Of a stretch of DNA of 64,000 nt, positions 13,898-22,123 are shown piece by piece; position 1 is the first letter of the stretch; the number at the start of each line of letters is the position of its first letter. The translations under genes and the position numbers were made by a program. Location: the NCBI GenBank assembly GCA_023666335.1, contig JAMPCE010000008.1, forward strand, positions 1 through 64,000, written 5' to 3'. This DNA is from a bacterium (lineage in GTDB: Bacteria; Bacillota; Clostridia; Lachnospirales; Lachnospiraceae). The notes under the pieces were generated by a model, which was given only the letters and a program-made list of their open reading frames with translations, had not been told where the DNA came from and ran no database searches.

Positions 13898-16609
<2,712 letters not shown>

Positions 16610-16613
16610 GAGG

Positions 16614-17291
16614 ATGACGGAACTGACCGATCTCTTTTATAAATGTTTTATCAGGGAAGACCGATATAAACTATTGTTGAGCGGTATCGGCGTGACCATC
16701 AAGGTCTCGCTCTTGGCGATCGTCATCGGGATCCTGATCGGAATGCTGATCGCGATGTGCAATCTGTCAAAGAAAAAAGCGCTCCGCCTGATCGGCGGCA
16801 TCTACACGGATGTGATCCGCGGGACGCCTTCGGTGACGCAGTTGATGATCATCTATTTTGTCATCTTCGCTTCGGTGCAGCTTGACAAATGGATCATCGC
16901 GGCGATCGCTTTCGGCGTCAATTCCGGCGCCTATGTGTCGGAGATCATTCGGGCGGGCATCCTTTCGATCGACAAGGGACAGACGGAGGCGGGCAGGTCG
17001 CTTGGCTTAAACGCTTTTCAGACCATGAGCCGGATCGTGATCCCGCAGGCGGTCAAGAATATCTTTCCCGCGCTGTGCAATGAGTTCATCGTGCTGATCA
17101 AGGAGACGGCAATTGTCGGTTACGTCGGGCTGATGGATATCCAGAAAGCGGGCGACTTTATCAAGAGTGCGACTTTTGAAGCCTTTATGCCGCTTATCGG
17201 CGTCGCCGTTATCTATTATGTGTTGATCAAGATCCTGACGCTGGCGTTAAAACAGGTAGAGAACAGACTGCGCAGAGCCGACGCGCATTAA
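16614..17291 (+). CDS. polar amino-acid ABC transporter permease
   Basis: A 225-residue inner-membrane permease of the HisMQ/GlnP type with about five helices. The EAA loop [22 protein letters not shown] sits at about residues 123-144, and [13 protein letters not shown] is the usual early signature. It forms a homodimer or heterodimer channel with the ATPase encoded next. The gene is nearly fused to the kinase gene (4-bp gap, shared AATGAGAGG ribosome site), so kinase and transporter are probably made together. Confidence 0.93.
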
Positions 17292-17326
17292 AGGACGGAT
17301 GGAAACGCTTCGGAATGAGGAATGAT

Positions 17327-18049
17327 ATGATTAAAGTAAAAAACCTACATAAAAAATTCGATGATCTGGAAGTCTTAAACGGGATTGACGAGCACATCAC
17401 GCAGGGCGAAGTGGTGGTGGTGATCGGGCCGTCCGGCTCGGGCAAGAGCACTTTTCTGCGATGCCTGAATCTGTTGGAGGTGGCGACCGCGGGCGAGATC
17501 TATGTGGACGATGAGCTGATCACGGCTCCGAAAGTCAATGTCAACCGCGTGCGGCAGAAGATGGGCATGGTGTTTCAGCAGTTTAACCTGTTTCCGCATC
17601 TGAGCATTATGGATAACATCACGCTTGCGCCGGTACTTTTGAAAAAAATGACAAAGGACGAGGCGGTAAAGCGGGGACAGGAACTTTTGGAGCGGGTCAA
17701 TCTCGGAGAAAAGGCGAATGCGTATCCGGCGCAGCTCTCCGGCGGGCAAAAGCAGCGGGTGGCGATCGCAAGAGCCCTGGCGATGGATCCCGAGATCATG
17801 CTCTTTGACGAGCCGACGTCGGCGCTCGACCCGGAGATGGTGGGCGAGGTGCTGGATGTCATGAAAGATCTGGCAAAGTCCGGCATGACTATGGTGATCG
17901 TCACGCACGAGATGGGGTTTGCCAGAGAGGTGGCGTCCAGAGTGCTTTTCATCGATCAGGGCGTGGTCATGGAGAGCGGTACGCCGGAGGAAGTGTTTGG
18001 GAATCCGCAGAATGAGAGGACGCGGAATTTTCTCTCAAAAGTTTTGTGA
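17327..18049 (+). CDS. amino-acid ABC transporter ATPase
   Basis: A 240-residue ATPase of the GlnQ/HisP type with Walker [10 protein letters not shown], signature [16 protein letters not shown], Walker [13 protein letters not shown] and the switch His in VTHEMGFA. An in-frame ATG at 17315 is possible, but GAGGA lies just before the ATG at 17327. It powers uptake with the permease upstream and the binding protein downstream. Confidence 0.95.
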
Positions 18050-18059
18050 TATATTGCAG

Positions 18060-18082
18060 ATAATTGTGAGTTTCACAATTAT
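18060..18082 (+). promoter_or_regulatory. perfect inverted repeat between ATPase and binding-protein genes
   Basis: ATAATTGTGA (18060-18069) and TCACAATTAT (18073-18082) pair over 10 bp around a 3-base loop. It lies 10 bases after the ATPase stop and 35 bases before the binding-protein ATG. It could be an operator, or a transcript-stabilising hairpin that lets the binding protein be made in excess. It has no U run, so it is not a classic terminator. Confidence 0.55.
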
Positions 18083-18117
18083 TGAATAGAGAGTAGGAAA
18101 CAAGGAGGAGAAAAATT

Positions 18118-18927
18118 ATGAAAAAAGCAACGAAGAAACTGACAATGGCGTTTGCCGCGATTTTGGCGGCGGGTGCGCTGACGGCATGCGGCGGCGACGC
18201 GGCAGAGACTGCGGGCGGAAACGGCGCGGCTGCGGAGACTTCCGGCGGCACGATTACGTTCGGTACGAACCCGGAGTTCCCGCCGTTTGAGTTCGTTACC
18301 GCAAGCGGTGTGATCGGCGAGTTTGACGGCATCGACATGGCGATCGCCAAGCAGATCGGGGAAGACAACGGCATGGAAGCCAAGATGGAGAGCATGGAGT
18401 TTGACTCCCTGCTGATCGCGCTGCAAAACGGCCAGATCGACGCGGTCATCGCGGGTATGACGGCGACCGACGAGAGAAGGGAGACTGTGGATTTCTCCAC
18501 CCCTTACTACACGGCAACACAGGTCATGATCGTGAAAGAGGATTCCGATATCGCGACTGCTGCGGATATGGCGGATAAAAAGATCTGCGTGATCCAGGGT
18601 TACACCGGCGAGGTCTGCGTGCAGGATATGGGCTATCCTTACGAGGCGTTCAAAAAGGGAACCGAGGCGGTCATGGAGCTGGTGAACGGCAAGTGCGACG
18701 TGGTAGTGCTTGACTCTGCGACGGCGCAGAAGTATGTCGGCGACAATGAGGGCTTAAAGATCGTGGAGGATGCTTCGGCGTTCGAGGCGGAAGAGTATGC
18801 GATCGCGGTGCAGAAAGGCAACACGGAGCTGCTTGAGAAGATCAACAAGTCTGTCGAGAAGATGCTGGCGGACGGCACGATCAACGAGCTGGCGGTGAAG
18901 TATACCGAGGAAGCAGCGGCGGAGTAA
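18118..18927 (+). CDS. amino-acid ABC transporter solute-binding lipoprotein (normal domain order)
   Basis: A 269-residue SBP_bac_3 lipoprotein. The signal helix ends in L-T-A-C (Cys24). The mature protein shows the usual order: lobe 1 with FGTNPEFPPFEF, FDGIDMAIA, and GMTATDERRETVDFS, which contains the Arg that binds the amino-acid carboxylate, then lobe 2 with VIQGYTGEV, VVLDSATAQKYV and a closing helix. It captures polar amino acids outside the membrane for the permease/ATPase encoded upstream. AAGGAGG precedes the ATG. It is a useful internal comparison for the rearranged binding protein at 19890. Confidence 0.95.
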   Translation: MKKATKKLTMAFAAILAAGALTACGGDAAETAGGNGAAAETSGGTITFGTNPEFPPFEFVTASGVIGEFDGIDMAIAKQIGEDNGMEAKMESMEFDSLLIALQNGQIDAVIAGMTATDERRETVDFSTPYYTATQVMIVKEDSDIATAADMADKKICVIQGYTGEVCVQDMGYPYEAFKKGTEAVMELVNGKCDVVVLDSATAQKYVGDNEGLKIVEDASAFEAEEYAIAVQKGNTELLEKINKSVEKMLADGTINELAVKYTEEAAAE

Positions 18928-19042: not shown

Positions 19043-19798
19043 ATGAAGAGAATATGTAAACAATGCGGTGCAGAATTTACTTTGACAGAGCAGGAGATTG
19101 CTTTTTATCAAAGTAAAAATCTGCATTTGCCGAAGCGCTGCGAAGCGTGCCGCAGAGAGAATAAGGAGAGCGCGAACAAAGCGCAGCAGGTGGTAAGACC
19201 TTACCAAAGCAGCAGAAACGCTGGCAGCAGAGGAAAAATAGGGGCGGCAGCAGCGGCTGTTGTTGTTTTGGCGGCCTGCATTGGCGTATTTTGGTATGGC
19301 AGGTCGTTTGAACAGGAGCAGAGCGGGATCGTAAATGAGGTGATCGCGGAAAGCGCGGCTGACTTTTCGCAGACGGCGGAGACACAGGAGGCGGCGAATG
19401 CGCCGGCAGATGTTCCGGCAGAGGAAGAGGCGGCGAAAGCGTCGGCAGATGTTCCGATAGAGGAAGAAGCAGAAGCGGAACCGCCAGAGGAGATACAGCC
19501 GGCAGAGACGCCCGCCCCTGCTTCGACATCTCTCTATTTCTTTCGCAAAGAGCAATATTTGCAGGAACATTTTGAAAAACATGGCGCAGAATTTGGCTAT
19601 GCGTCGGCGGACGAATATCTGGCGGGCGCAAACAGGGTGATCGCATCGCCGGAGGCGCTGCATAAACTGGAAGCGGAAGACGGGGATGACGTATACTATC
19701 TGGAAGCATCGAATGAGTTTGTGATCGTTTCTACGGATGGATATATTCGGACGTATCTAAAGCCTGACGACGGGAAGGCATACTTTGACAGACAATAA
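19043..19798 (+). CDS. zinc-ribbon membrane protein with conserved C-terminal domain
   Basis: A 251-residue protein with three parts. Residues 1-38 form a zinc ribbon (CKQCGAEFTLTEQE, then RCEACR), similar to the 'probable zinc-ribbon' family PF13451. A single membrane helix at about 70-88 (AAAAAVVVLAACIGVFWYG) and an acidic Ala/Glu/Pro linker (about 95-165) follow. The C-terminal ~85 residues (EHFEKHGAEFGYASADEYL, ANRVI, EDGDDVYYLE, EFVIVSTDGYIRTY) form a compact domain that I recall from small secreted Clostridia proteins and that loosely resembles barnase/BECR-like folds; that likeness is tentative. The ribbon would be inside and the C-terminal domain outside. Function unknown. Confidence 0.7.
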   Translation: MKRICKQCGAEFTLTEQEIAFYQSKNLHLPKRCEACRRENKESANKAQQVVRPYQSSRNAGSRGKIGAAAAAVVVLAACIGVFWYGRSFEQEQSGIVNEVIAESAADFSQTAETQEAANAPADVPAEEEAAKASADVPIEEEAEAEPPEEIQPAETPAPASTSLYFFRKEQYLQEHFEKHGAEFGYASADEYLAGANRVIASPEALHKLEAEDGDDVYYLEASNEFVIVSTDGYIRTYLKPDDGKAYFDRQ

Positions 19799-19849: not shown

Positions 19850-19889
19850 ACAAAAGTATCAGAAAACCATTTTGGAGGAGGAGAACATT

Positions 19890-20675
19890 ATGAAAAGGAA
19901 AACGGCGCTTTTACTGGCGCTCTCGATGACGGTGTGCGCGGCGCTCACGGGCTGCGGCGGTAAAAAAGAGAGCAAGGATATGGTGTATGCCGTGGAGGCA
20001 GGAAGCGCGGGGGAAGCGGCAGCGCAGGAGAAAGGCTGGCAGATGAACAGTGTAGCTTCGCAGGCGGACGCGCTCATGGAAGTGGCTTCCGGAACGTCGG
20101 ATGCGGCGATCATCGATCTTCTGATGGCGGGCGCCATGATCGGGGAGGGAACAAGTTACCCGAATCTGGTACATACGGATGAACTGACAACGGAGGAGTA
20201 CGGCGCGGGCTGCCGCAAAGGTTCCGATCTGGCTTCCTTTATCAATTCCGTGCTCGCGGAGAGCTATGCGGACGGTTCCATGCAGGAGACGGCTGCAACG
20301 TACGGCGTGCAGGAGGCGCTGGTGGAGCAGAAAGCAAGCGAATATGCGGACAACGGTTCCGGCGATGTGGCATACATTCAGGGCAAGGGCACGCTGATCG
20401 TGGGTATCACGGAGTTTGAGCCTATGGATTACAAGGATGCTTCCGGCGAGTGGATCGGTTTTGACGCGGACATGGCGCGTCTCGTGGCACAGAAGCTGGA
20501 TGTGGAAGCGCAGTTTGTGGTGATCGACTGGGATAACAAGATCATGGAACTGGATTCCAAGAACATCGATGTTGTCTGGAACGGCATGACATTGACCAAT
20601 GAAGTCACTGAGGCTATGGAGTGCACGAACGCCTACTGTAATAACGCGCAGGTGGTCGTGGTATCAGGAGAATGA
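19890..20675 (+). CDS. solute-binding lipoprotein with circularly permuted lobes
   Basis: A 261-residue lipoprotein (lipobox L-T-G-C, Cys22) with SBP_bac_3 sequence in reversed order. Residues about 30-150 match the second lobe of normal binding proteins (VEAGSAGEAAAQ, DALMEVASGTSDAAIIDLLMA, EEYGAGCRKGSDL, closing helix ADGSMQETAATYG). Residues about 166-261 match the first lobe (GTLIVGITEFEPMDY, WIGFDADMARLVAQKL, IDVVWNGMTLTNE) and end at the hinge strand AQVVVV. The usual carboxylate-binding Arg after GMT-x-T is absent (TNEVTEAM), while the lobe-2 Asp (IID) is kept. GGAGGAGGAG supports the ATG at 19890; the earlier in-frame start at 19785 would bury the signal peptide. Permease and ATPase genes follow directly, so it serves its own transporter. 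Confidence 0.88.
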   Translation: MKRKTALLLALSMTVCAALTGCGGKKESKDMVYAVEAGSAGEAAAQEKGWQMNSVASQADALMEVASGTSDAAIIDLLMAGAMIGEGTSYPNLVHTDELTTEEYGAGCRKGSDLASFINSVLAESYADGSMQETAATYGVQEALVEQKASEYADNGSGDVAYIQGKGTLIVGITEFEPMDYKDASGEWIGFDADMARLVAQKLDVEAQFVVIDWDNKIMELDSKNIDVVWNGMTLTNEVTEAMECTNAYCNNAQVVVVSGE

Positions 20676-20678
20676 GTG

Positions 20679-21335
20679 ATGTTTTTGAGTGTAACGCAGT
20701 CGCTGCTTGGAGGTCTCTGGACGACTTTTCAAATCTTTATTTTTACGCTGCTCTTTGCGCTGCCGCTGGGACTGATCCTGGCGTTTGGCGCGATGAGCAG
20801 GTGGAGACTGCTGCGCGGTCTGGTGGAAACGCTGGTCTGGATCATACGGGGAACGCCGCTGATGCTGCAGCTCATCATCATTTTTTACGGACCGGGGCTT
20901 TGGCTCTCCCACAATATCTGGAGCGGCAGTGAGGCGGGACGGATCACGGCTACCGTGGTGGCGTTTTCCATCAATTACGCCTGTTATTTCTCGGTGATCT
21001 TTCGCGGCGGCATCGAGGGCGTTCCGATCGGACAGCGGGAGGCGGGCGAGGTGCTTGGCATGACGAAGAGCCAGATTTTTTTCAAGGTCACGCTCTTACA
21101 GATGGTAAAGCGCGTGGTGCCGCCGATGTCCAACGAGATCATTACGCTGGTGAAAGACACGTCGCTGGCGCGGATCATTGCGGCTTATGAACTGACTTTT
21201 GCGGGCTATTCCTTTATGAAGAGTAACGGCATTACCTGGCCGCTCTTCTATACGGGGGTGTTTTATCTTCTGTTCGTGGGGATCCTGACGCTGCTGTTCC
21301 GTCATGTGGAGCGCAGGCTGGACTATTTCAGGTAG
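20679..21335 (+). CDS. amino-acid ABC transporter permease, second system
   Basis: A 218-residue HisMQ/GlnP-type permease. IIRGTPLMLQLIIIFYGP and the EAA loop EAGEVLGMTKSQIFFKVTLLQ are clear, and VKDTSLARIIAAYEL is the usual C-terminal signature. AGGAG at 20666-20670 suits the ATG at 20679; a GTG three bases earlier is the alternative. It starts 3 bp after the permuted binding-protein gene. Compared with the first system's permease it has a longer loop (SHNIWSGSEAGR) before the third helix. Confidence 0.93.
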   Translation: MFLSVTQSLLGGLWTTFQIFIFTLLFALPLGLILAFGAMSRWRLLRGLVETLVWIIRGTPLMLQLIIIFYGPGLWLSHNIWSGSEAGRITATVVAFSINYACYFSVIFRGGIEGVPIGQREAGEVLGMTKSQIFFKVTLLQMVKRVVPPMSNEIITLVKDTSLARIIAAYELTFAGYSFMKSNGITWPLFYTGVFYLLFVGILTLLFRHVERRLDYFR

Positions 21336-21346
21336 GTGGAGGAAGT

Positions 21347-22123
21347 ATGGCTGTATTAGAAGTAAAGAATATCGGAAAACGGTTCGGCTCCACAAAGGTA
21401 CTGAATGATGTGAGTTTTACGCTGGAAGAGGGAAAGGCGCTTGCGATCATCGGTTCCTCCGGCTCCGGAAAGACGACGCTTCTGCGGTGCCTGAACTTCC
21501 TCGAGACGCCGGACCGCGGTTCCATTACGGTAAAGGGTGAGACGCTGTTCGACGCGGACGATCCCGCAAGCGGTCAGGGGAGCGATCTGCGCACCAAAAG
21601 GCTGCATTTTGGCATGGTATTTCAGGCGTTTCATCTCTTTCCGCAGTATACGGCGTTAGAGAACGTGACTTTGGCGGAAAAACTGTTGGCGAAAGAGCGA
21701 TCGGATTTTAAACAGAAGAAAAAGGAACTCTATGAGGAGATCGACGCGCACGGGAAAGAACTGTTAAACCGGATGGGACTGGCGGAGCGCATGGAGCACT
21801 ATCCGCACCAGCTTTCCGGCGGGCAGCAGCAGCGTGTGGCGATCGCGAGGGCGCTTGCCCTACAGCCGGATATCCTCTGTTTCGACGAGCCGACTTCGGC
21901 GCTCGATCCGGAACTGACAGGCGAGGTCTTAAAAGTGATCAGAGGGCTTGCCGACCAGCACACGACGATGATCATCGTCACGCATGAGATGGCTTTCGCC
22001 AGAGATGTGGCGGATCAGATCATCTTTATGGATGAGGGCGTCATCGTGGAGCAGGGCGATCCGAAACAGGTCATCGACCATCCGAGGGAGGAGCGGACGA
22101 GACAATTTTTGACCAGATATTGA
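21347..22123 (+). CDS. amino-acid ABC transporter ATPase, second system
   Basis: A 258-residue ATPase with Walker [10 protein letters not shown], signature [16 protein letters not shown], Walker [13 protein letters not shown] and the His in VTHEMAFA. It is longer than the first-system ATPase because of an insert around residues 115-140 ([19 protein letters not shown]). GTGGAGGAAG precedes the ATG, 11 bp after the permease stop. It is the last gene of the operon; a strong terminator follows. Confidence 0.95.

Follow-up and report, generated by a model that had tools for sequence, protein, structure and literature searches.

Natural circular permutation of a family-3 solute-binding protein in a gut bacterium, and its apparent recurrence among related binding proteins

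One gene in the DNA analyzed here raises the question of whether a solute-binding protein (SBP) of an ABC transporter can carry its two lobes in swapped order and still work, and if so, where its chain was cut and how often this has happened. The gene lies in a 64,000-nucleotide stretch, hereafter the window, of a Lachnospiraceae genome (contig JAMPCE010000008.1, positions 1 to 64,000). In this gut bacterium the open reading frame at 19890-20672, with its stop codon at 20673-20675, encodes a 261-residue lipoprotein in an intact frame, on the forward strand like its two partner genes and the neighboring SBP gene described below. A sequence-only reading had described it as a natural circular permutation with an unbroken frame, its own signal peptide, and its own ribosome site, and these three features could be read directly. 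An RBS-like motif (GGAGGAGGAG, 19874-19883) lies 6 nt upstream of the ATG, and the translation opens with a signal peptide and lipobox (residues 1-22, 19890-19955; ALTGC, with Cys22). Cys22 was invariant in alignments of 14 and of 63 rows.

By profile, the window protein belongs to family 3: Pfam SBP_bac_3 (PF00497) matched at 87.1 bits against a cut-off of 26.4 (E = 1.1e-24), family-3 NCBIfam models matched as well, and no cluster-B sugar-binding family was listed among its Pfam, NCBIfam, or PDB matches. The Pfam match covered only residues 170-259, aligned to profile positions 2-91, which is lobe 1 only; lobe 2 was detected by phmmer and by a lobe-2 profile (LOBE2). The best PDB chain, 6svf (TmArgBP), was matched in two pieces of reversed order, with query residues 163-259 on chain residues 6-103 and query residues 33-129 on chain residues 121-217, and no single colinear match over the whole protein was found among the best 60 of 93 PDB chains. 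The searches thus returned reversed pieces, not the colinear alignment to a normal SBP that would speak against a permutation, and the claim that lobe-2 sequence stands before lobe-1 sequence held. In place of the typical family-3 order, lobe 1a, lobe 2, lobe 1b, the chain runs lobe 2, lobe 1b, linker, lobe 1a, and first strand of lobe 2. As judged from these alignments, the window protein is a family-3 (PF00497) SBP with lobe 2 ahead of lobe 1. The Pfam profile shows only half of it, and proteins of this kind may therefore be taken for partial or unusual ones.

To place the cut, we used TmArgBP, for which the published boundaries are residues 23-110 and 210-231 for lobe I, 116-203 for lobe II, and 111-115 and 204-209 for the two connectors (PMC4022495); a numbering offset of 19 was assumed, from the construct length (227 residues = 20-246). 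Lobe 2 from its second strand onward occupies residues ~31-98 of the window protein (19980-20183; phmmer against TmArgBP and LOBE2 match), followed by the putative second interlobe connector (residues ~99-104, 20184-20201; alignment with TmArgBP 204-209) and by lobe 1b, the C-terminal part of lobe 1 (residues ~105-147, 20202-20330), as placed by alignment, profile, and the TmArgBP boundaries. A variable region of the alignment, residues ~148-163 (20331-20378), forms the new linker between the old C- and N-termini. Lobe 1a, the N-terminal part of lobe 1, comes next (residues ~164-248, 20379-20633; Pfam and PDB alignments), then the first interlobe connector YCNNA (residues 249-253, 20634-20648), which aligns with TmArgBP 111-115, and last the strand QVVVV with the new C-terminus SGE (20649-20672), which align with TmArgBP ~116-121. 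In the alignment to 6svf, under the assumed offset, QVVVV corresponds to the first strand of lobe II. The alignment spans both lobes and the two connectors, less ~17 residues of lobe-2 loop and helix (TmArgBP 122-138) for which the chain has no counterpart between its new ends. The sequence-only reading had put the cut at the interlobe hinge; by the published boundaries, it sits within lobe 2, after the first strand. Loss of one hinge crossing through the permutation was considered and dropped: with the QVVVV strand assigned to lobe 2, the alignment retains both crossings between the lobes and places both new ends on lobe 2. The linker of about 15 residues in that reading does join the old termini, with the linker proper better put at about 12-16 residues.

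Because by alignment both lobes and both crossings are kept, the protein is predicted to adopt the usual two-lobe Venus-flytrap fold. Only the chain ends would move, from lobe 1 to the loop of lobe 2 that follows its first strand, with the old ends in lobe 1 bridged by the linker. We infer that solute closes the lobes and that the closed form docks on the dimer of the downstream permease, permB, with the membrane anchor now pulling lobe 2 in place of lobe 1. The lipobox is seen by sequence, and the permease and ATPase genes by profile and context. It is very likely that the window protein is a working, lipid-anchored permuted SBP of the polar-amino-acid type (family 3, cluster F) that serves the permease and ATPase encoded downstream.

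What it binds may be unusual. The arginine of the GMTxTxxR motif holds the alpha-carboxylate of the ligand. The window protein has valine at this position, and the arginine was absent from all 98 ORFs of its permuted clade (group A; valine in 87, threonine in 10, glycine in 1, some loci overlapping). Valine was also found in 16 of 20 rows of normal-order sisters, so the change probably predates the permutation. In the permuted groups B and C described below, the arginine was present wherever the pattern matched (31/34 in group B, 14/24 in fused B, 6/7 in group C, the rest being unmatched). The missing arginine in the permuted clade and its sisters may hint at an unusual ligand. The partner genes were also considered as a guide to substrate, and none is claimed from them: the best NCBIfam matches fell below cut-off (TcyN 307/406 bits, ArtM 113/248 bits).

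A scan of a genome collection returned at least 562 confirmed relatives, and each of the best 80 loci held one ORF in the order 2-1, at 65-90% best-segment identity to the window protein; the ranking favors full-length colinear matches, and these loci are not a measure of the permuted share. Their labels were mostly Lachnospiraceae, with Oscillospiraceae and others, and their named sources included Roseburia porci (L153) and strains 1xD42-87 (L109) and 0.1xD8-71 (L115). Within the family, permuted full-length colinear matches occurred in 7 of 299 genomes, the window's own and six others (67-77% identity), so that orthologues of the same order were found in other Lachnospiraceae both here and among the named loci of the scan. 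Normal-order (1-2) orthologues occurred in 41 of the 299 (lobe-1 identity 54-74%), with the order read from coordinates and, in 25 of the 41, also from lobe profiles. No genome held both, which proves little as only about one overlap would be expected by chance. The dN/dS of the window gene against four relatives was 0.07, 0.08, 0.10, and 0.12. With this and an order common to many assemblies, the sequence-only view of a natural permutation in a probably working gene, not a rearrangement scar, was upheld.

The matching transporter genes named in that reading were likewise recovered, by profile and by operon comparison. The cognate permease permB (BPD_transp_1, 20676-21335) abuts the SBP stop codon if its GTG is the start, with an alternative ATG at 20679, and the cognate ATPase atpB (ABC_tran, 21347-22123) follows. 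An SBP-permB-atpB operon was present in 9/9 normal-order and 6/6 permuted genomes examined; among the first 20 of the 80 named loci, permB was found in 20 and atpB in 19, the exception lying at a contig end. Copies in the normal-order genomes were 60-64% (permB) and 66-73% (atpB) identical to those in the window. A tree of permB and atpB grouped 22 permuted operons with a support of 83 (not starred) and left the branching of the normal-order operon groups unseparated, as one group or several. Since the same operon surrounds both orders, with the normal-order orthologues in other genera, the gene was most likely permuted within an operon that was already there.

Upstream, the window carries a PocR-domain hybrid histidine kinase and then a second amino-acid-type transporter with permease, ATPase, and a normal-order SBP (together 13898-18927), a block that also adjoins the permuted operon in L105, L107, and L112. 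Between the two transporter operons lies a gene for a small zf_Tbcl protein (19043-19798) with one membrane helix by eye and homologues in L105 and L109. The SBP of the second transporter (18118-18927) has the normal lobe order by profile, as had been stated. It was rejected as the parent of the window gene, being 27-33% identical per lobe and placed in the other half of the tree.

Phylogeny argues firmly for a single origin of group A. With the lobes put in a common order, a 73-row tree recovered the clade as monophyletic (support 100/99) and nested with normal-order rows (98/90, then 99/94), and quick trees of 139 and 106 rows also united it (support 99). Its exact sister differed between trees, being an NA subgroup with 98/90 in the 73-row tree and another normal-order group with 86 (unstarred) in the 106-row tree. 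Tandem duplication, in-frame fusion, and trimming of the ends is the textbook route to circular permutation. For group A, an ancestral normal-order gene would have been duplicated in tandem and fused in frame within its operon, and the fused gene would then have shed its leading lobe 1, together with ~17 lobe-2 residues, and its trailing lobe 2. No scar of this route was seen, and extant tandem arrays, given below, indicate that such fusions do occur in these bacteria.

Is the permutation of the window protein an isolated event? Of the ORFs recognized by lobe profiles at 179 loci, 139 have the order 2-1, 48 have the order 1-2, and 7 fall in neither class (some loci overlap; the 139 include L099 and L102, which are type C with a weak last piece). 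Beyond group A, these and further searches revealed several other architectures. Group B is ~30% identical to the window protein, with a cut a few residues upstream that keeps TSVEDL at the N-terminus. Many of its members are long permease-fused ORFs, as read in L040, L041, and L080 and as likely by ORF length in L075-L079; in the three that were read, the permease is attached to the new C-terminus a short way past the first strand of lobe 2. In group C the cut falls toward the end of lobe 2 and the order becomes 2b-1-2a; all three pieces were found in L098, L100, L101, L207, and L211. Of 12 further type-C candidates, ten have three pieces and two (L245, L249) read as 2b-1 with the last piece below threshold, although the tail of L245 reads as lobe 2a by eye. 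Type C occurred in 14 of 110 family genomes (counting L099, L245, and L249, with the last piece under threshold), and the listed loci are L098-L102, L207, L211, L142, and L245-L256. A type-C protein shares its locus with a group-A protein in L142 and L147, weakly supported in the latter.

A phylum search of 299 genomes added group D in five (L240, L242, L243, L259, L260; L264 and L240 are one gene), group E, whose cut inside lobe 2 is at a third site, in three (L241, L257, L258), a single F protein (L236), and one group-A protein (L235). The lineages of groups D, E, and F lie outside the taxonomic order of the window. A separate phylum search with the type-C profile gave one full-length match, in the window's own family. 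Hand counts gave single-unit full-length permuted matches in at least 44 of 392 genomes of the order and, with the normal-order profile A5, a permuted ORF in at least 22 of 60 family genomes, the window's own included. At least 24 permuted ORFs were counted in those 60 genomes, nine of type C and 15 whose cut lies close to the first strand of lobe 2, with both pieces listed for 14 of the 15; no lobe-1 cut was seen among the profile A5 matches listed. In profiles A1 and A4, lobe 2 is split or stands first, which biases them toward lobe-2 cuts.

Tandem fused arrays exist in both phases, 12 and 21. L093 reads 121212-permease, and its copies are identical at 203-206 of 221-223 residues, by which it is a recent tandem triplication of normal-order domains. 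Single ORFs also encode 1212-permease (L290), 2121-permease (L285, L287, L288, L289), and 2121212121-permease (L103).

A common origin of groups A and B was rejected: forcing them into one clade cost 286 log units (AU p 1.6e-34). A single clade of all type-C rows was rejected too (AU p 1.3e-10), and C1 with C2 was not (AU p 0.159). The groups are named by architecture, and long branches separate the halves of the tree. Parsimony on 106 rows counted nine changes between permuted and normal order, which may include reversals and fall partly on weak or long branches. Together, the rejected clades and the distinct cut sites indicate about four to five origins; the cuts fall at three or more sites, each of them within lobe 2. 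The same kind of remodeling has arisen several times in related binding proteins of Bacillota, the phylum being inferred from the labels of the relatives.

Three other explanations of the window protein have to be weighed against a working permuted monomer. An assembly error or a recent rearrangement scar would be the simplest, as the order resembles that of a collapsed tandem copy and most relatives come from metagenome assemblies; we see next to no chance of it, given that the order recurs at the 80 best loci in many assemblies, some from named strains (L153, L109, L115), and that dN/dS stays at 0.07-0.12. A chimera, with its two lobes drawn from separate binding-protein genes, would also yield the order 2-1. 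We hold it to be very improbable, because both lobes match a single normal-order gene in genome G153, at 67% for lobe 1 and 70% for lobe 2, and because that orthologue shares the operon (L265); the lobe trees used re-joined lobes. Alternatively, the protein could be a lobe-swapped dimer, or a unit left over from a tandem array, that pairs lobes between chains, a thought encouraged by the 2121-permease arrays and by the swapping of its own C-terminal helix in TmArgBP (PMC4022495). This we consider unlikely, if somewhat less so than a chimera, since the named loci hold single-unit permuted ORFs and the linker connects two ends of lobe 1, so that pairing within one chain should be easy.

How does this protein compare with known systems? 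Normal family-3 SBPs (TmArgBP, 4prs/6svf; GlnBP, 1ggg; AncQR, 4zv1) match both of its lobes by sequence and are likewise secreted or lipoproteins encoded with a family-3 permease and ATPase. In contrast to these, the window protein begins with lobe 2, has its new ends there, lacks ~17 residues, and is without the GMTxTxxR arginine, which most normal-order sister rows also lack. Natural permutation is known in TpMglB-2, which its authors place in a proposed "Type Ic, Cluster Bc", with tethering suggested as a reason (PMC4990184). Both it and the window protein are natural circular permutations of lipid-anchored ABC binding proteins; TpMglB-2, however, has the type I (cluster B) sugar-binding fold with a cut inside the N lobe, its permuted part is 13% identical to the start of EcMglB, and, unlike for the window protein, a close normal-order twin is not reported in the sections of that report covered here (PMC4990184). 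CPSARST detected a circular permutation among glycine-betaine-binding proteins, which are thus also permutation-related binding proteins, but at <24% identity, by structural comparison, and in another substrate family (PMC2395249).

The nearest engineered case is a sensor built on a permuted LAO-binding protein, which still binds lysine, with a Kd of 107 uM against 3 uM for the native protein, a 36-fold weakening to which the fused fluorescent proteins may contribute (PMC5087393). Like the window protein, cpLAO-BP belongs to cluster F, has its old ends joined by a linker (12 residues), and is cut near the interdomain connector; it is man-made, one interdomain linker was deleted, and its ends lie on different lobes, whereas the window protein, by alignment, keeps both crossings and has both ends in lobe 2 (PMC5087393). 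GlnPQ (6h30), with tandem binding domains fused to the permease, resembles a possible intermediate stage; its phase is normal, unlike the 2121 phase of the arrays at L103, L285, L287, L288, and L289 (PMC8025302). Its two domains gave the only colinear long span on a permuted query among the PDB chains listed. Searches found no permuted family-3 structure among the best 60 of 93, 211, 100, and 96 PDB chains, and the top-ranked matches in the open-licence literature did not describe any family-3 binding protein permuted in nature. Natural SBP permutation is therefore already known, in cluster B, and its repeated origin in family 3 is the surprising part.

Why the permutation recurs may have an adaptive answer or none. 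The cuts seen share one consequence, namely that the N-terminus is placed before lobe 2. We tentatively propose that permutation arises repeatedly in Bacillota in different loops, always of lobe 2, that moving the N-terminal anchor to lobe 2 alters docking or opening, that slippage of 12 arrays into 21 arrays supplies the permutants, and that the window protein is among the results, its normal-order twin occupying the corresponding operon in sister genera. The other reading, to which we give about an even chance, is that permutation is selectively neutral, lobe-2 loops tolerating new ends that tandem duplications supply. Engineered permutants such as cpLAO-BP work and natural ones are known in cluster B, both in keeping with neutrality. 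Among the 139 permuted ORFs, a regular expression missed the lipobox in 20, of which by eye 13 lack it, six have it, and one runs off its contig; with 13 of 139 lacking it, anchor placement cannot explain everything, and moving the anchor becomes less convincing as the only cause. Against neutrality, all cuts seen fall in lobe 2, ~42% of the domain, but the profiles favor such cuts and the independent events are few. Given the ORFs without a lipobox, the profile bias, and the small sample of events, neutrality is at least as likely as an anchor function.

For the family, the value of these proteins lies in the closeness of the two orders. The natural SBP permutations described in the published accounts cited above are between remote relatives, and here permuted and unpermuted orthologues are ~54-74% identical and have the same partner genes, so that natural pairs are at hand for measuring how permutation affects folding, hinge motion, affinity, and transport. 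If one family has indeed been permuted several times at different sites, this would amount to a replicated natural experiment.
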